From Thiohalophilus sp. (lineage in GTDB: Bacteria > Pseudomonadota > Gammaproteobacteria > UBA6429 > Thiohalophilaceae), in assembly GCF_034522235.1 (NCBI RefSeq), contig NZ_JAXHLN010000003.1:434001-498000 (forward strand): 64,000 nt of DNA, given 5' to 3'. The position numbers were made by a program, and so were the translations under genes. Positions 34,768-45,198 of the stretch are shown here, piece after piece (the first letter of the stretch is position 1; every line of letters begins with the position of its first letter). Below the pieces are notes generated by a model. It searched no databases. It saw only the letters and a program-made list of their open reading frames with translations, and was not told the origin of the DNA.

Positions 34768-36222
34768 ATGGCCCATTCAACTGCGCAGGCTGCGGAGCAA
34801 TATAACTACGATATTGTCCGCAAGTTCACCATCATGACGATCGTCTGGGGTGTGCTGGGGATGTTCGCAGGCTTGTATATTGCATCCGAACTTGCCTGGC
34901 CCTTTTTGAACTTTGATATTCCGGAAATCACCTTTGGTCGTTTGCGCCCGGTGCATACTACGCTGGTGATTTTCGGTTTTGGGGGCAGCGCATTGTTCGC
35001 AACTTCCTATTATGTGGTGCAGCGGACCTGCCAGGTACGCCTGTATAACGATGGCCTGGCGAATCTCACATTCTGGGGTTGGCAGGCATCGATCGTTCTG
35101 GCGGCTATCTCCTATGTCATGGGTTATACCCAGGCCCGCGAATATGCGGAAATGGTCTGGCCGATCGACATCCTGATCGCCGTGACCTGGGTGGCCTATT
35201 TCTGGATTTATGTTCAGACGCTGCGTCGTCGCAGTCAGCCGCACATTTATGTCGCCAACTGGTTCTTTATCGCCTTTATTCTGGCCACGGCACTGTTACA
35301 TATTTTCAATAATATGGCCGTGCCGGTCAGCATGTTCAGCCTGGAGTCTTACAGCCTGCATGCCGGCGTTCAGGACGCCATGACCCAGTGGTGGTACGGA
35401 CATAATGCGGTTGGCTTCTTCCTGACCGCCGCATTTCTCGGGATGATGTATTACTTTGTACCCAAGCAGGCTGGACGTCCGGTTTACTCCTATCGTCTGT
35501 CTATTATCCACTTCTGGGCACTGATCTTCCTGTATATGTGGGTCGGTACCCACCATCTGCACTGGACCGCCATTCCGGACTGGACCTCGACGCTGGCTGC
35601 AACATTCTCTATTTTGCTGCTGATGCCGTCCTGGGGCGGCATGATCAACGGGATCATGACCCTGTCAGGCGCCTGGGACAAACTGCGCACCGACCCGATT
35701 ATTCGTTTTTTTATTGTGGCGCTGTCGTTTTACGGCATGTCCACATTTGAAGGTCCGCTGATGTCGCTCAAGAGTGTGAATGCCCTGTCGCACTACACGG
35801 ACTGGACTATTGGTCACGTACACTCCGGTGCCCTGGGCTGGGTGGCTATGATCACCTTCGGTTCGCTGTACCATCTGATTCCGCGCCTGTGGGAAACCAA
35901 AATGTACAGCGATCGGTTGATCTATCTGCACTTCTGGCTGGCAACCATCGGCATCGTCCTGTATATCACCGCGATGTGGGTGGCGGGTATCGGTCAGGGT
36001 CTGTTGCTGCGTGCCTTTGATGAGTACGGGAATCTGGCTTACACCTTTATAGAATCCGTTGCCTTCCTGCATCAGCCGTATGTATTCCGTGCGCTGGGCG
36101 GCGCGTTCTTTGTTGTCGGAATGGTCTTGATGGCATTCAATACCTACATGACAATCCGTAAGGCGAATCTTGAGGGGGCTGAACTGGAAGCCAAACTGGC
36201 TGCAAAAATGGCCAAGGCCTAA
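34768..36222 (+). CDS. ccoN: cbb3-type cytochrome c oxidase subunit I
   Basis: Catalytic subunit of the high-affinity cbb3 oxidase, with heme b and heme b3-CuB. It has 484 residues and about 12 helices. Typical C-family blocks are [64 protein letters not shown] (CuB ligands) and [17 protein letters not shown] (heme ligands). An agagg sequence lies 7-11 bases before the ATG. It opens ccoNOQP. Confidence 0.97.
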
Positions 36223-37009: not shown

Positions 37010-37207
37010 ATGTTTGACTGGATAAGATCGATGGTACATTCAGGAGACGCGAAAACGTTTCTGTTGTTCCTGTTCTTTTTTACATTTATCGGCATCGTTT
37101 TATATGTATATGCAAGCCGTAAGCGCGGCCGTCGACTTGAGTCATACAAGAATATTCCGTTTGAAGATGATGATGTAGCCCATCGCAAGGATACAGACAA
37201 TGAGTAA
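37010..37207 (+). CDS. ccoQ: cbb3-type oxidase subunit CcoQ
   Basis: A 65-residue single-helix protein that stabilises the CcoNO-CcoP complex. An N-terminal amphipathic segment precedes the helix TFLLFLFFFTFIGIVLYVYA, then a basic stretch (SRKRGRRLESYKNIPF) and an acidic tail. The FIGIVLYVY...R..R..E..K..PF pattern is typical of CcoQ/FixQ. Its stop overlaps the ccoP start by 8 bases. Confidence 0.93.
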   Translation: MFDWIRSMVHSGDAKTFLLFLFFFTFIGIVLYVYASRKRGRRLESYKNIPFEDDDVAHRKDTDNE

Positions 37208-38259: not shown

Positions 38260-39666
38260 ATGACACAAACCGCCTATCAGTCCCGTATCCCGATTTACCC
38301 GCGATCCGTCAAAGGTCGTTTTCGCACGATCAAGTATGCGGTACTGACGCTCGCGTACGGGGTCTATTTCCTGCTGCCCTGGCTGCGTTGGGCTCGGGAA
38401 AATGCGCCGGATCAGGCCGTGTTGTTCGATCTGGCCGGACGTCACTTTTACCTGTTCGATCTGGTGGTCTATGCCCAGGATATTTTCTGGCTCGCCGGGG
38501 TGCTGATTATATTTGCCCTGTTAATGTTCTTTGTGACCGGCGTGGCGGGCCGTGTCTTTTGTGGCTACTTCTGCTTTCAAACCCTGTGGACCGATGTGTA
38601 CATCCTGATCGAGCGCCTGGTCCAGGGTGAGCGTAATGCCCGTATCAAGCTGGCCGATGCGCCCTGGAGCAAGACCAAGTTTTTCAAGCTGGGGATGACG
38701 CACGTTCTATGGCTGGCCATGGCCTTTGTGACCGGCCTGACCTTTGTGCTTTACTGGGGTAATGCGCCACAACTGGTGCTGGACTTTTTCCGCGGCGAGG
38801 CACCCTTTGCCGCCTATGCCACCACCTTGTTTTTGACCGCAACCACGTATGTAATGGCCGGGCTGGCTCGTGAGCAGGTCTGTACCTATATGTGTCCCTA
38901 TGCCCGCTTCCAGGGCGTGATGTTCGATCGTGACACCCTGATCGTCGCTTATGATGAGCAGCGCGGTGAACGCGAGCAGGGGCGGCACAAGCCGTCCAAA
39001 GACTACATGGCGCGCGAGGCCCGTATTGCCGACAAGGTGGGCGACTGTATCGATTGCGGTTATTGCGTACAGGTCTGTCCGGTGGGGATTGATATTCGTA
39101 ATGGCTTGCAATACCAGTGTATCTCCTGTGCCTTATGTATTGATGCCTGCGATACTATTATGGACAGCATCGGTTACCCCCGCGGACTGATCCGCTATAC
39201 CTCGCAAAAGGCCCTGGAAGGCGAGAAGAGCAATCCCTTCAATCTTAAAAACCTCGGTTATGCCCTGGCTCTGATCGCGGCGGTTGGTCTGTTGACCTGG
39301 GCCATATCGCATCGGGACAAGGTTGAGCTGAGCGTGGCCCAGTTTCGCCAGCCGATGTCCGTGACACTGTCCGACGGTCGGATTCAGAACCGTTATGAGA
39401 TAAAAATCAACAACAAGACCAGTGAGTCGATTCGTTACCGGATCAGTATCGGTGGCCTGCCGCAGGCGGAGCTGGATCTGGGGGGCAATGAAGAGGTCAC
39501 CGTCAGCCCGGAACACAGTCTTAAACTGATGGCCAAGGTGAATCGCCGGCCGGAAATTGCCGAACAGGAGCGCCAGTCTTTCGAGTTTGTGATTCGTCAG
39601 ATCAATAGCGAACAGCCGCTGACGACTCGCCGCACTACCGTTTTTTATACACCACTAACGCGCTAA
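38260..39666 (+). CDS. ccoG: Cytochrome oxidase accessory protein CcoG (polyferredoxin)
   Basis: Membrane iron-sulfur protein that reduces copper for cbb3 assembly. It has 468 residues and several helices in the first 230 residues. GRVFCGYFCFQTLWTDVY and REQVCTYMCPYARFQG carry conserved Cys pairs, followed by two [4Fe-4S] motifs, CIDCGYCVQVCPVGID and CISCALCIDACDTIM. A later helix and an immunoglobulin-like periplasmic C-terminus (VTLSDGRIQNRYEIKINNKT) complete the CcoG/FixG/RdxA architecture. Confidence 0.96.
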   Translation: MTQTAYQSRIPIYPRSVKGRFRTIKYAVLTLAYGVYFLLPWLRWARENAPDQAVLFDLAGRHFYLFDLVVYAQDIFWLAGVLIIFALLMFFVTGVAGRVFCGYFCFQTLWTDVYILIERLVQGERNARIKLADAPWSKTKFFKLGMTHVLWLAMAFVTGLTFVLYWGNAPQLVLDFFRGEAPFAAYATTLFLTATTYVMAGLAREQVCTYMCPYARFQGVMFDRDTLIVAYDEQRGEREQGRHKPSKDYMAREARIADKVGDCIDCGYCVQVCPVGIDIRNGLQYQCISCALCIDACDTIMDSIGYPRGLIRYTSQKALEGEKSNPFNLKNLGYALALIAAVGLLTWAISHRDKVELSVAQFRQPMSVTLSDGRIQNRYEIKINNKTSESIRYRISIGGLPQAELDLGGNEEVTVSPEHSLKLMAKVNRRPEIAEQERQSFEFVIRQINSEQPLTTRRTTVFYTPLTR

Positions 39667-40512: not shown

Positions 40513-43014
40513 ATGGTTGAGCAGCAACACAGCTGTTTTCACTGCGGGCAGCCGGTTCCTCCAGGCAGTCACTATCAGGCTGTCATCGACGGGCAGGCAC
40601 GGCCCATGTGTTGCCCCGGTTGCGAGGCGGTGGCCAACGCCATTGTCGAGGCGGGTCTGGCCGACTTTTACCGCTATCGCACCGACAACGCCCCCAATCC
40701 CTCCCAACTGGTCCCGGATGTGCTGGAGACGCTGGATCTGTATGACCGGCCCGAGGTGCAACAGCGTTTTGTCAGTGGCGAACCCGAGGAGCGCGAAGCG
40801 GCGCTGATCCTCGAGGGGATCACCTGCGCCGCCTGTGTCTGGTTGAGCGAGCGCCATGTCGGCCGCTTGCCGGGGGTGCTGGAGTTTTCCGTCAACTACA
40901 GTACCCAGCGCGCCCGGGTGCGCTGGGATGAGCGCCAGATCCATCTCAGTGACATCCTCAAGGCGATCAGCGCCATCGGCTATCTGGCCCACCCCTATGA
41001 TCCCCAGCATCAGGCCAGGGTGCACCAGCGCGAGCGGGGGCGCGCCCTGCGCCGGCTCGCCGTGGCCGGGCTGGGCATGATGCAGGTGATGATGCTGGCC
41101 GTGGCGCTTTACGCCGGTGAGGACCAGGGCATGAGCCCCGAGATGATGCACTTTTTGCGCTGGGTCAGCCTGGTGATTGCCACGCCGGTGGTCTGGTACT
41201 CGGGGTGGCCGTTTTTCAGCGGCGCCTGGCGCGATCTGCGCCAGCGTCGGCTGGGCATGGATGTGCCGGTGGCACTGGCCGTGAGCGGGACCTATCTGGC
41301 GAGTCTGATCGCCACCGTCAGCCGCAGCGGGGAGGTCTATTTTGAATCGGCCACCATGTTCGTCTTCTTTTTGCTTCTGGGGCGGTTTCTGGAAATGGGG
41401 GCGCGCCAGCGCGCCAGCGCGGCGGTGGAATCCCTCGCCACCCTGTTGCCGGCGCTGGCAACCCGCCTGGAGGCGGATGGCAGTGAATGCCGGGTCGGGG
41501 TGGCCGAGCTGGTCCCCGGGGATCGGGTGCGGATTCGCCCGGGCGAGACGGTGCCGGCCGATGGCGAGATCCTTCGCGGCATCTCGAGCGTGGATGAGTC
41601 GCTGCTGACCGGCGAAAGTCTGCCCCGCGCCCGGCGTACCGGCGAGGCCCTGATCGGCGGCGCGGTCAACGTCGAGAGCCCGCTGGAGATGCGGGTGACG
41701 CAGGTCGGTCAGGACACGGTCCTCTCGGGGATCCAGCGCCTGCTGGACCGGGCCCAGAGCGAGAAACCGCGGATTGCCCGGCTGGCCGAGAGGGGCACCG
41801 GCTGGTTCGTGCTGGGCGTGTTGCTGCTGGCGGCGGGCGCGGCGCTGGTCTGGTGGCAGATCGAGCCTATGCGCGCCTTCTGGGTGGCGGTGGCGGTGCT
41901 GGTGGTCAGCTGCCCCTGCGCCCTGGCGCTGGCCACCCCGGTGGCGATGACTGCCAGTACCGGCCAGCTGACCCGGCGGGGGGTGATCACTACCCGCGGG
42001 CATGCCCTGGAGACCCTGGCGCGGATCGATACCCTGGTTTTCGACAAGACCGGGACCCTCACCCAGGGCGAACTGCGACTGGAGCAGGTGATGCCGCTGG
42101 GCACGCTGCCGGCGGCGCGCTGCCATGTGCTGGCCGCGGCGCTGGAGCAGGGATCGGAACATCCGTTGGCAAAGGCGATTGTCGCCGAGGCGCCCCAAAC
42201 CGTGCCGGTCGAGCAGTTGCAGGCGACGCCCGGGCGCGGCGTCGCCGGCGAGATCGATGGCATCGCCTATCGGCTCGGCAATCTGGACTTTGTGCGCGAG
42301 CTCAGCGGTGCGGGTCCTGTGCCACAAGCGGTGCCGGGCCAGAGTGCCGTTTATCTGGGCTCGGCCAAGGGGCTGTTGGCGGCGCTGACGCTGAGCGATC
42401 AATTGCGTCCCGAGGCGGCGCAGACCGTGGCGGGGCTGATCGAGCAGGGGATCGAGGTGCAGCTGTTTTCCGGCGACGAGCCGGCCACGGTACAGCGGGT
42501 GGCCGAACAGCTCGGGATTGCACAGGTCCGGGGCGGGCTGCTGCCGGCGGACAAGCTGGCCGGTTTGCGCGAGCTGCAGGCGCAGGGGCGCACCGTGGCC
42601 ATGGTCGGCGACGGCGTGAATGACGCCCCGGTGCTCTCCCAGGCCCATGTCTCCATCGCCATGGCCAGCGGGGTCGAGCTGGCGCGCAACAGTGCCGATA
42701 TGATCCTCCAGGCCAACCGGCTGAGTCCCTTGCTGGATGCCGTGGTTCAGGCGCGAGCGACCCGGCGTATTATTCACCAGAACATCGGCTGGGCGCTGGG
42801 CTACAATCTGGTGGCGCTGCCGGTCGCGGCCGCCGGCCTGCTTACCCCCTGGCTCGCCGCGCTGGGCATGTCCCTGAGTTCGCTGCTGGTGGTGCTCAAC
42901 GCCTTGCGGCTGCTTCGCCATAATGGCGAGGCGTCGCCGGCACCGGCGGCCCGGCGCCGCCTCGGGGTTCAGCCGCCGGGCGAGGTGGCGGATAATGATG
43001 TCAAACCCGGCTGA
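40513..43014 (+). CDS. ccoI: Copper-translocating P-type ATPase CcoI
   Basis: P1B-type ATPase exporting Cu(I) for the cbb3 active site. It has 833 residues. An N-terminal Cys-rich segment (CFHCGQPVPPGSHY...CCPGCEAV) is followed by a heavy-metal domain with C105-x2-C108 (GITCAAC). Helices include the metal motif CPC at 467-469 (SCPCALALATPV). Phosphorylation DKTGTLTQ is at 511, the GDGVNDAP hinge near 697, and actuator TGES near 362. The N-terminal zinc-finger-like segment marks the CcoI/FixI subgroup. The last 25 residues are polar. Confidence 0.96.
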   Translation: MVEQQHSCFHCGQPVPPGSHYQAVIDGQARPMCCPGCEAVANAIVEAGLADFYRYRTDNAPNPSQLVPDVLETLDLYDRPEVQQRFVSGEPEEREAALILEGITCAACVWLSERHVGRLPGVLEFSVNYSTQRARVRWDERQIHLSDILKAISAIGYLAHPYDPQHQARVHQRERGRALRRLAVAGLGMMQVMMLAVALYAGEDQGMSPEMMHFLRWVSLVIATPVVWYSGWPFFSGAWRDLRQRRLGMDVPVALAVSGTYLASLIATVSRSGEVYFESATMFVFFLLLGRFLEMGARQRASAAVESLATLLPALATRLEADGSECRVGVAELVPGDRVRIRPGETVPADGEILRGISSVDESLLTGESLPRARRTGEALIGGAVNVESPLEMRVTQVGQDTVLSGIQRLLDRAQSEKPRIARLAERGTGWFVLGVLLLAAGAALVWWQIEPMRAFWVAVAVLVVSCPCALALATPVAMTASTGQLTRRGVITTRGHALETLARIDTLVFDKTGTLTQGELRLEQVMPLGTLPAARCHVLAAALEQGSEHPLAKAIVAEAPQTVPVEQLQATPGRGVAGEIDGIAYRLGNLDFVRELSGAGPVPQAVPGQSAVYLGSAKGLLAALTLSDQLRPEAAQTVAGLIEQGIEVQLFSGDEPATVQRVAEQLGIAQVRGGLLPADKLAGLRELQAQGRTVAMVGDGVNDAPVLSQAHVSIAMASGVELARNSADMILQANRLSPLLDAVVQARATRRIIHQNIGWALGYNLVALPVAAAGLLTPWLAALGMSLSSLLVVLNALRLLRHNGEASPAPAARRRLGVQPPGEVADNDVKPG

Positions 43015-43047
43015 ACCGGCCAGCGCCGGAAGACAGGAGTTCTCAGC

Positions 43048-43251
43048 ATGGAAATTCTCTATCTGCTCATCCCCATCGCCGTGATCGTTATGGCCGTGGC
43101 CATCGGCGCGCTGGTGTGGGCGGTGCGCAGTGGCCAGTTTGACGATCTGGAGGGACCCGCCCACCGGATATTGATGGATGATGACGATCCGCGTATTCCC
43201 AGCCGGCGGGAGGAGCCCGAATCCCGCGGGGATCAGGATAAAGACGAATAG
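43048..43251 (+). CDS. ccoS: cbb3-type oxidase assembly protein CcoS
   Basis: A 67-residue single-helix protein needed for cofactor insertion into the cbb3 oxidase. The N-terminal helix MEILYLLIPIAVIVMAVAIGALVWAV is followed by the signature SGQFDDLEGPAHRILMDDD and a charged tail. aggag lies 7 bases before the ATG. Position directly after ccoI is universal for ccoS. Confidence 0.95.
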   Translation: MEILYLLIPIAVIVMAVAIGALVWAVRSGQFDDLEGPAHRILMDDDDPRIPSRREEPESRGDQDKDE

Positions 43252-43324
43252 AAACCGACTTGATGCGCGGCCCCGGCTTTATTAGAATTTACTTATTAAC
43301 GATGACGCCTTTTTGGAGAACCCG

Positions 43325-43426
43325 ATGAAAGAGATGTTCACCTTCCAGAATTTACCCATGGTGATCGTGGTCGCGCTGATCGCTATTGCCTGGTTCAGTT
43401 TGCTGACGGTCCTGATTGGCGGCTGA
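43325..43426 (+). CDS. 33-residue membrane peptide after ccoS, unknown
   Basis: ATG 43325 has a good ribosome-binding site (ttggag, 6-7 bases upstream) and runs 33 codons to TGA 43424-43426. A short amphipathic start (MKEMFTFQNLPM) leads into one membrane helix (VIVVALIAIAWFSLLTVLIG). It is too short for most gene finders. Position directly after the cbb3 assembly genes suggests a small oxidase subunit or assembly peptide analogous to CcoM or CydX, but I see no sequence match to those. Confidence 0.6.
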   Translation: MKEMFTFQNLPMVIVVALIAIAWFSLLTVLIGG

Positions 43427-43671
43427 ATGCCTTTCCGATCCTTTGCCGCAGAGGCGGGTCGATCGCCCTGTCCGGCAAGGAGACTCAAATCCTTTCTGTT
43501 ATACGTCGGTGGCGTGATTCCTTCCGTGGTGCGTCTTTGGCGCGCTGTCATGCAGTGCTCCGGCTGCCATGGGTTCGCGCAATAATCAAGCTTCTCGAAA
43601 ATCCGCCCGGGGAGGTCTACGCTTGTTAGCAGGGGACGCTGAACACGTGTTGGCAATCGCGGAGGTGTTTT
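43427..43671. other. Gap between two small genes, nothing secure
   Basis: 245 bases. A 51-codon frame starts at ATG 43427, directly after the previous stop (43427-43582), but it has no ribosome-binding site and a composition like random high-GC sequence apart from a CSGCHG stretch. No hairpin or clear promoter was seen. Confidence 0.4.
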
Positions 43672-43872
43672 ATGGCCGACAAGCAAGCGCAATCCCGTTC
43701 GTCCATCAGCATGCACGAGGGTATCGCGGTGTGGTGTGATTGCTGCTCCTGCGAGATCGAACCCTACTGGCAGGCGGTGGCACAAGAGCTGGGTATCGAT
43801 CTGGGCAGTGACTACGAATCTGACAACGTGCCTGATAAGCCGGAGTCAATTCCCGGAGGCTCTGGAAGTTAA
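43672..43872 (+). CDS. Small cysteine-cluster protein, function unknown
   Basis: A 66-residue acidic protein with a strong ribosome-binding site (cggaggt, 5-6 bases before ATG 43672). The central VWCDCCSCEIEPYW puts four cysteines in six positions (23, 25, 26, 28), flanked by aromatic residues, and could bind a metal. The C-terminal third is Asp/Pro/Gly/Ser-rich and probably disordered. No family is recognised. Its TAA stop is formed by the first three bases of a family 1 repeat arm, so the original C-terminus may have been altered by arrival of the repeat. Confidence 0.6.
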   Translation: MADKQAQSRSSISMHEGIAVWCDCCSCEIEPYWQAVAQELGIDLGSDYESDNVPDKPESIPGGSGS

Positions 43873-44131
43873 CGCAGAGGACGCGGAGGCGCAGAGGCGC
43901 GGAGAAATGAATTGTATGTCAGTGCAGTCGTTCTATTCGTGCTAGTTGACGGTGCGTAGTATGCACCCCGCAGGGCTGATAATTTACGCGGAGGACGCAA
44001 AGAAAGATGCAGCGAAGATCTTTTGTGGCCTCAGGCATAAGGAAGAGGGTTATTATTTTGTGACATAACTCTTTTTCACATTGGTATTATTTTATTCTCC
44101 GCGCCTCTGCGACTTTGCGTCCTCCGCGTTA
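43870..44131. repeat. Family 1 repeat cluster: two left arms and one right arm
   Basis: Left arm 43870-43904 and the reverse complement of right arm 44097-44131 match at 31 of 35 bases. A shorter second left arm lies at 43984-43998 (ttacgcggaggacgc). The cluster fills most of the 347-base gap before the rpoH end, leaving only a terminator. The 5' TAA of the left arm is the stop codon of the 66-residue gene. Confidence 0.78.
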
Positions 44132-44170
44132 TTCCCGGAGCATATGAGAGAAACCACCGGGTACGGAAAC

Positions 44171-44200
44171 AAAAAAGGCCTCACAGTGGAGGCCTTTTTA
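44171..44200 (-). terminator. Intrinsic terminator after rpoH (possibly bidirectional)
   Basis: AAAAAAGGCCTC (44171-44182), a 6-base loop and GAGGCCTTTTTA (44189-44200). The 6-bp GC stem with an A-run on one side and a T-run on the other works in both directions. It lies 20 bases past the rpoH stop on the minus strand and would also stop plus-strand transcripts. Confidence 0.88.
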
Positions 44201-44219
44201 TTGATGCAGGTCGTCCAGT

Positions 44220-45071
44220 TTAAGCGGCCAACGCACCACGCAATTTCTTCATGGCGTTGGATTCGAGCTGACGGATCCGTTCGGCCGAGATGTTGTAGGT
44301 ATCGGCCAGATCATGCAGCGTGGATTTGTGGTCGCTCAACCAGCGGCGGGTGATGATGTCGCGGCTGCGATCGTCGAGATCCTGCAGGGCGCCCAGCAAC
44401 TGCTGTTTGTTATGCGCCTCCCACTGCTGATCTTCCACTACCTGCGAAGGCTCGTGGCTCATATCTTCCAGAAAGCCGACCGGTGACAGGTTGGGGCGAT
44501 CGTCATCGTCATCATCGGGCTGATCAAAACCGACGTCCTGACCGCTCATGCGCGATTCCATCTCGCGCACGTCCCTGGTGGTCACGCCCAGATCCTCGGC
44601 GACCGATTCGACTTCGTCCTGGTTGAACCAGCCCAGACGCTGCTTGGCGCTGCGCAGGTTGAAGAACAGCTTACGCTGGGCCTTGGTGGTGGCGACCTTG
44701 ACGATGCGCCAGTTGCGCAGGATGTATTCGTGGATCTCGGCGCGGATCCAGTAGACCGCAAAGGAGACCAGCCGCACGCCGACATTCGGATCGAAGCGTT
44801 TGACCGCCTTCATCAGGCCGATATTGCCCTCCTGGATCAGGTCCGCCTGGGGCAGGCCGTAGCCGCTGTAGCTGCGGGCGATATGGACCACGAAGCGCAG
44901 ATGCGAGAGCACCAGCTGTTGCGCGGCGTCCAGCTCCTGCTGTTCCTGCCAGCGGCGGGCCAGTGAGGTCTCTTCCTCCGCGGAAAGCATCGGAATACTG
45001 CGCGTTGCCTGGATGTAGGATTCCAGGTTGCCGGTCGGCACGGCCAGTTGCAGTTGTAGACCCTTACTCAT
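44220..45071 (-). CDS. rpoH: RNA polymerase heat-shock sigma factor (sigma-32)
   Basis: Directs transcription of chaperone and protease genes during heat shock. Start 45071 gives 283 residues (E. coli 284) and an N-terminus collinear with E. coli ([19 protein letters not shown]). In-frame starts at 45095, 45092 and GTG 45113 would add up to 14 residues. Region 2 is [29 protein letters not shown]. The RpoH box is [15 protein letters not shown]-like ([15 protein letters not shown]), followed by [11 protein letters not shown]. Region 4 ends with [21 protein letters not shown]. An insertion of five Asp residues sits near 187. Confidence 0.96.
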
Positions 45072-45198
45072 AATATGTGTATCCTCGCTCATCATGTCGT
45101 TCAATCCTAGCACTCACAAACTTAGAGTGCCAGATCATCCATTAGTTCCCGCTAATATATAGCCGGAAAACATTGAGATTTCAACCGATTAAGACCGC

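Follow-up and report, generated by a model that had tools for sequence, protein, structure and literature searches.

A conserved 33-residue membrane-helix gene accompanies one branch of gammaproteobacterial cbb3 oxidases

The short open reading frame (ORF) downstream of ccoS in the 64,000-nt stretch of Thiohalophilus sp. DNA analysed here (the window) is a real, conserved gene for a 33-residue membrane helix. In the genomes tested, the peptide is present with CcoN of the window's type and absent with other CcoN proteins, whether the genes are linked or not, with one exception. Many bacteria reduce oxygen at high affinity with cbb3 oxidases, and an extra helix kept throughout a branch would alter how the enzyme of that branch is purified, modelled and annotated. 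Since it accompanies its oxidase branch even when unlinked, the peptide is probably a small subunit of the enzyme, or a helper in its assembly, that has been overlooked. By analogy with known small oxidase proteins, we favour, at a probability of roughly 0.6, a dedicated partner of one gammaproteobacterial cbb3 branch, most likely an accessory subunit at its periphery, which would stabilise the enzyme. Below, numbers with G, L and f are our own handles for genomes, loci and families.

Results

The peptide gene and its surroundings

The translated product, MKEMFTFQNLPMVIVVALIAIAWFSLLTVLIGG (33 aa), runs from an ATG at 43325 to a TGA at 43424-43426. The mechanical ORF list gave a longer version from TTG 43313 (37 aa); we favour the ATG because of its spacing from the GGAGA motif, which fits the ribosome-binding site named in the sequence-only reading of this DNA. 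That reading had also seen a transmembrane helix, as the predictions now do: the maximum 19-residue hydropathy is 2.94, and AlphaFold2, run on the single sequence, gave one helix (residues 2-32, mean pLDDT 88), so that by both measures the product is a short protein with one hydrophobic helix. Its place after the cbb3 maturation genes likewise holds, with 73 nt between the ccoS stop and the peptide start and with ccoG, ccoH and ccoS recognised by profile (Table 1).

Table 1 Features of the window around the peptide gene
Feature	Position	Strand	Evidence or remark
33-aa single-transmembrane-helix protein gene	43325..43426, stop included	+	in-frame conservation; predicted helix
Likely Shine-Dalgarno GGAGA	43315..43319	+	5 nt before ATG 43325
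Candidate sigma-70-like promoter, TTGATG-17-TAGAAT	43260..43288	+	weak match in the gap between ccoS and peptide
ccoS, 67 aa, usual upstream neighbour	43048..43251	+	PF03597 E 1.1e-23; TIGR00847
ccoI, P-type copper ATPase	40513..43014	+	ORF; named from sequence and position; ccoS neighbour
ccoH, 274 aa	39677..40501	+	PF05751 FixH, residues 142-264
ccoG	38260..39666	+	PF11614 FixG_C, PF13746
ccoQ	37010..37207	+	PF05545 FixQ
ccoN, catalytic subunit, branch tracked by the peptide	34768..36222	+	PF00115; TIGR00780, 699 bits
rpoH-type sigma factor gene, convergent	44220..45113	-	ORF; adjoins the peptide where ccoS is elsewhere

To the left of the peptide the window carries, in order, ccoN, ccoO, ccoQ, ccoP, ccoG, ccoH, ccoI and ccoS; ccoN, ccoQ, ccoG, ccoH and ccoS were identified by profile, and ccoO, ccoP and ccoI were named from their order and sequence. 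The FixH domain of CcoH is confined to its C-terminal part, and the N-terminal part is long and hydrophobic-looking. The convergent gene to the right is presumably rpoH, a name we give by sequence resemblance. The genome of the window (G000) has no other match to the peptide. It holds a second CcoN (G000:C3:290819-292198, L250), 63.8% identical to that of the window, which it outscores against TIGR00780.

A promoter scan of 42950-44300 returned two sigma-70-like sites against a mean of 0.7 in shuffled sequences. By eye, a stem-loop (GGCCTC-ACAGTG-GAGGCC, 44177-44194) with A and T runs on either side could terminate both the peptide and the rpoH transcripts; it is not among the sites listed by a terminator scan. 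We also observed an inverted repeat (43870-43906 and 44095-44131) with 37-nt arms, 89% complementary and separated by 188 nt, overlapped by a second repeat pair of 17 nt (43986-44002 and 44113-44129). A 66-aa ORF at 43672-43872, with WCDCCSCEIEPYW, has similar sequences among the loci searched only in three of the window's own genus (L001, L002 and L021).

The reading frame is conserved

The peptide matched 35 of 58 genomes at E<=10, its own included, and 29 of the 58 at 4.8e-5 or better. We then examined 80 ccoS loci, the best 80 of 442 by similarity to the ccoS of the window and, being so chosen, close relatives. Conservation of the frame after ccoS, which the sequence-only reading had set as its test, was found at 64 of these best-matching loci (E<1e-5; median gap from ccoS 46 nt); 12 lacked the peptide and 4 were too short. 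The family consensus is MxxMFTFQNFPxxIIxxLIxxAWLSFLSVxxxG.

The codons show that the frame is under purifying selection. Over 1213 pairs from 76 family members, the pooled pN was 0.201 and the pooled pS 0.637 (ratio 0.316), with pN below pS in 1203 of the pairs; the other two frames of the 76 members gave ratios of 1.08 and 2.43. A Shine-Dalgarno-like motif precedes 55 of 63 homologue starts, where shuffled sequences predict 17.6. Within 900 nt after ccoS, a search for a replacement small-helix ORF at the 16 loci without a profile match there (the 4 too-short loci included) yielded one poor candidate, at L090.

The peptide occurs with cbb3 oxidase genes

The family profile matched 58 of 370 class genomes at E<=0.01, and the 50 with a match at E<=1e-5 were counted as peptide genomes. 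Of the eight left out, G246, G142, G090 and G210, with weak matches, were later taken as members, the match adjoining ccoS in G246, G090 and G210; G069, G198, G217 and G331 were not. All 50 peptide genomes carry ccoS, against 195/370 of the whole class sample (chance figure ~4e-16, which ignores shared ancestry and linkage; restricted to the five unlinked genomes it is 0.04). All 50 also have a CcoN match (TIGR00780, E<=1e-202), a model that scores above its curated cut-off in 200/370 class genomes. In 42 of the 50 the peptide is encoded on the ccoS strand, no more than 600 nt downstream of ccoS; in 3 it is 1.5-7.5 kb away on the same contig, and in 5 it is on a separate contig. By linkage and by co-occurrence, therefore, the peptide goes with the oxidase, with a single exception (G242, below).

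Across the phylum, the profile matched 6 of 299 genomes at E<=0.01 and was strong in G000 and G570 only; the other four matches (9.4e-4 to 7.3e-3) look like chance or other families. A weak match from another class of the phylum (L145:1501-1584) falls within a protein of about 90 aa, TWWLVFFAVLPWGVRS, which we take to resemble the DUF1467 family.

The peptide tracks one branch of CcoN

The CcoN of the window was searched in 65 genomes, 21 with the peptide (including G090 and G210, with weak matches next to ccoS) and 44 cbb3-bearing genomes without it, chosen from the class sample of 370 mostly by TIGR00780 score out of roughly 150, and then in a further set of 18. The best CcoN was 73-83% identical to that of the window in 21/21 peptide genomes and at most 67% identical in 44/44 genomes without the peptide. 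The fetched sequences separate in the same manner: 55 CcoN rows from peptide genomes share 72.6-100% identity with the CcoN of the window, against 58.6-67.1% for 41 rows from genomes without the peptide (34 from 33 of the 44 genomes, plus 7 other genomes). Nine second CcoN copies in peptide genomes are 61.5-65.7% identical. G142 was counted here as peptide-bearing on a weak match away from ccoS.

On a quick tree of these 105 rows, the peptide label requires 2 changes, against 35.3 in shuffles. The rows of G246, G142 and G570 lie across the midpoint root, with weak support. The exception is G242, one CcoN row of which (on a long branch, 63% identical) is placed within the peptide branch; the class search of 370 genomes found no match to the peptide profile in that genome.

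The same association was observed within families. Peptide and window-type CcoN are both present in G161, G260 and G402 of f126 and both absent in G339; the corresponding genomes are G115 versus G225, G311 and G379 in f80, G077 and G203 versus G292 in f42, and G045 and G183 versus G278 and G353 in f10. In f136, G269 has cbb3 and the peptide, and G171 and G345 have neither. These within-family contrasts weaken the objection of shared ancestry; presence and absence of the peptide are still partly inherited by descent.

With the G242 row dropped, 16 CcoN positions carry one residue in >=90% of the branch rows and in <=10% of the others; they are scattered and single out no one helix. At position 266, in the motif HHLHW, all 55 peptide rows have Trp and 49 of the 50 others have Tyr, the single non-peptide row with Trp being that of G242. 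W266 adjoins histidines that we presume to be the CuB copper ligands of CcoN.

Apparent losses beside ccoS

Eleven of the 12 loci without the peptide after ccoS (L052 was excluded) were followed into whole genomes together with seven positive controls. To read such loci as losses proved wrong for four of the eleven: in Thiothrix (L064), Thiofilum (L065), Thiolinea (L100) and the metagenome-assembled genome of L033, CcoN is 75-77% identical to the window's and the peptide is encoded elsewhere, so that a gene missing from the operon may still be present in the genome. In the other seven, CcoN is 62-67% identical and the peptide is absent from the genome. Window-type CcoN and the peptide were both present in 7/7 positive controls, which include Thioalkalivibrio (CcoN 81 and 76%), Ectothiorhodospira, Plasticicumulans, Competibacter and Guyparkeria. 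CcoN type and peptide agree in 18/18 followed genomes, 11 with both and 7 with neither. These 18 overlap the earlier samples: by coordinates, G305, G375 and G001 are the genomes of Thiofilum, Thiolinea and L021, and G096, G214 and G238, already in the class sample, are apparently three of the seven negatives.

Unlinked and extra copies

The unlinked peptide lies beside a convergent rpoH in G077, G203, G089, G097, G115, G102, G305, G375, G570 and the genomes of L064 and L033, and the peptide of the window likewise has a convergent rpoH as neighbour. An ancestral cco-peptide-rpoH block, from which the oxidase genes later moved off while the peptide was kept, is the likely origin of this arrangement; since rpoH is so constant a neighbour, the gene may also owe its place to some other cause. 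The genomes of L064 and L033, like G115 and G102, carry the peptide gene in tandem copies. By eye, the peptide of G375 is immediately preceded by a second, divergent short ORF. Divergent extra copies away from both ccoS and rpoH were seen in G246 (L162:2894-2971) and G191 (L163:2898-2972), one of them with a long hydrophilic tail; both genomes also have a ccoS-adjacent copy.

Some unlinked copies are preceded by an FNR-like box, counted at 9 or 10 of 10 matches. The box stands 75 nt before the second copy in G115, 79 and 139 nt upstream of the peptide in G102, and 82 nt ahead of the first copy in the genomes of L033 and L064; in G375 a 10/10 box stands 302 nt before the profile match and about 75 nt before the upstream short ORF. 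No box of at least 9/10 precedes the unlinked peptide in G077, G097, G203, G089, G570 or G305. Because the background is 15 sites per 88799 positions (nine loci), about half a site would be expected in eleven 300-nt stretches, in which 3 were seen; the pattern was noticed post hoc. The boxes represent few independent cases, since G102 and G375 are both members of f67 and Thiothrix is probably a third. A box of the same strength lies upstream of ccoN in G115, G305 and G089 and was not found there in the ccoN-holding regions of G077, G191, G402 or either G570 copy; in the window, none of at least 9/10 was found before ccoN or the peptide.

Discussion

The sequence-only reading had raised the possibility of a new oxidase subunit. 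What stands of this suggestion is a conserved single helix tied to cbb3 even when unlinked; that the peptide is physically a subunit is suggested by analogy with CcoM, CydX and CioY. According to the reading we favour, a stabilising accessory subunit, the gene would make a protein of about 30-35 residues that would insert in the membrane as a single helix, pack on the outside of CcoN and, as is reported for CcoM in Pseudomonas, stabilise the assembled cbb3 enzyme.

The chief alternative is that the peptide acts as a dedicated assembly factor, working with CcoS, CcoI or CcoH on window-type CcoN and not kept in the finished enzyme. The peptide usually follows ccoG-ccoH-ccoI-ccoS directly, and an assembly factor would be expected to track the CcoN type equally. 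However, the family consensus contains no Cys or His, which argues against the handing over of metal and leaves other assembly roles untouched, and the nearest analogues, CcoM and CioY, are reported as subunits (PMC8267372 and PMC11955535, respectively). We therefore regard an assembly factor as rather unlikely, at something like one chance in a handful. Lower still, we place a part in some other microaerobic membrane process, or one linked to rpoH, with the oxidase tracked through shared ancestry alone. The unlinked copies examined do adjoin rpoH, save the extras of G246 and G191, but the peptide follows the CcoN type inside f126, f80, f42 and f10, and rpoH was found in the fetched flank, whose length varies, of only 28/64 peptide-bearing ccoS loci; such a role seems improbable. 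As for a chance ORF, or a leader peptide that yields no protein, the ORF is short and its single sequence could not by itself exclude either, but purifying selection across the 76 members, of which the other two frames show none, together with the tandem copies and the upstream FNR-like boxes of some genomes, leaves these readings next to no credence, and the codon test (pN/pS) rejects them.

A bolder version of the accessory-subunit reading is that the peptide defines the cbb3 branch with HHLHW rather than HHLHY, stands where other cbb3 enzymes have the CcoM or CcoH helix and adapts the branch to its setting, perhaps including sodium pumping. Sulfur oxidisers, Thioalkalivibrio and Ectothiorhodospira among them, belong to the branch, and sodium pumping has reportedly been described for a Thioalkalivibrio cbb3. 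We put this version forward tentatively, as a possibility more doubtful than not; if it is true, cbb3 branches independently recruited unrelated single-helix subunits.

Compared with known families, the peptide would be new by sequence, in none of the libraries searched, and by kind a small oxidase partner. Neither the single sequence nor the family found a credible match in Pfam, NCBIfam or PDB; the best of any family for 59 members was DUF6737 in Pfam (E 0.012) and E 0.28 in NCBIfam, and no curated CydX or YbgT-type model is among the Pfam and NCBIfam matches of these members. PF05545 matches the ccoQ product at 37010-37207, and no Pfam family matches the peptide; PF03597 and TIGR00847, the CcoS models, do not match it either. 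A search of the open-licence literature found no report of the gene. CcoQ/FixQ and CcoS/FixS are likewise small, single-helix proteins of the same cluster, and the window encodes each of them separately.

To our knowledge, CcoM of Pseudomonas is the one extra small cbb3 subunit known. The peptide is like CcoM of the Pseudomonas stutzeri enzyme (PDB 5djq chain N, 36 aa) in its length, its one helix and its tie to cbb3. Homology between the two was looked for and not found (hhalign probability 0.3%, a weak test with CcoM as a single sequence), so that the analogy is functional only. CcoM itself gave one strong match in the 370 class genomes, in G182, with 22 others only at E 0.01-0.1, and no match in G000; G182 is without the peptide, and its CcoN differs, at 66% identity to that of the window. 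These published small partners agree with the favoured reading: CcoM is reported as needed for the stability and not for the activity of the enzyme in Pseudomonas (PMC8267372). CydX of the E. coli bd oxidase and CioY of Campylobacter CioAB (34 aa) are also short, single-helix proteins whose genes adjoin those of the oxidase, and CioY co-immunoprecipitates with CioA (PMC11955535); unlike the peptide, both partner bd-type oxidases and not a heme-copper oxidase. In the Rhodobacter capsulatus bc1-cbb3 supercomplex, too, a single extra helix lies by CcoN, next to TMH9, and is tentatively assigned to CcoH (PMC7876108); in the window, a separate and much longer gene encodes CcoH.
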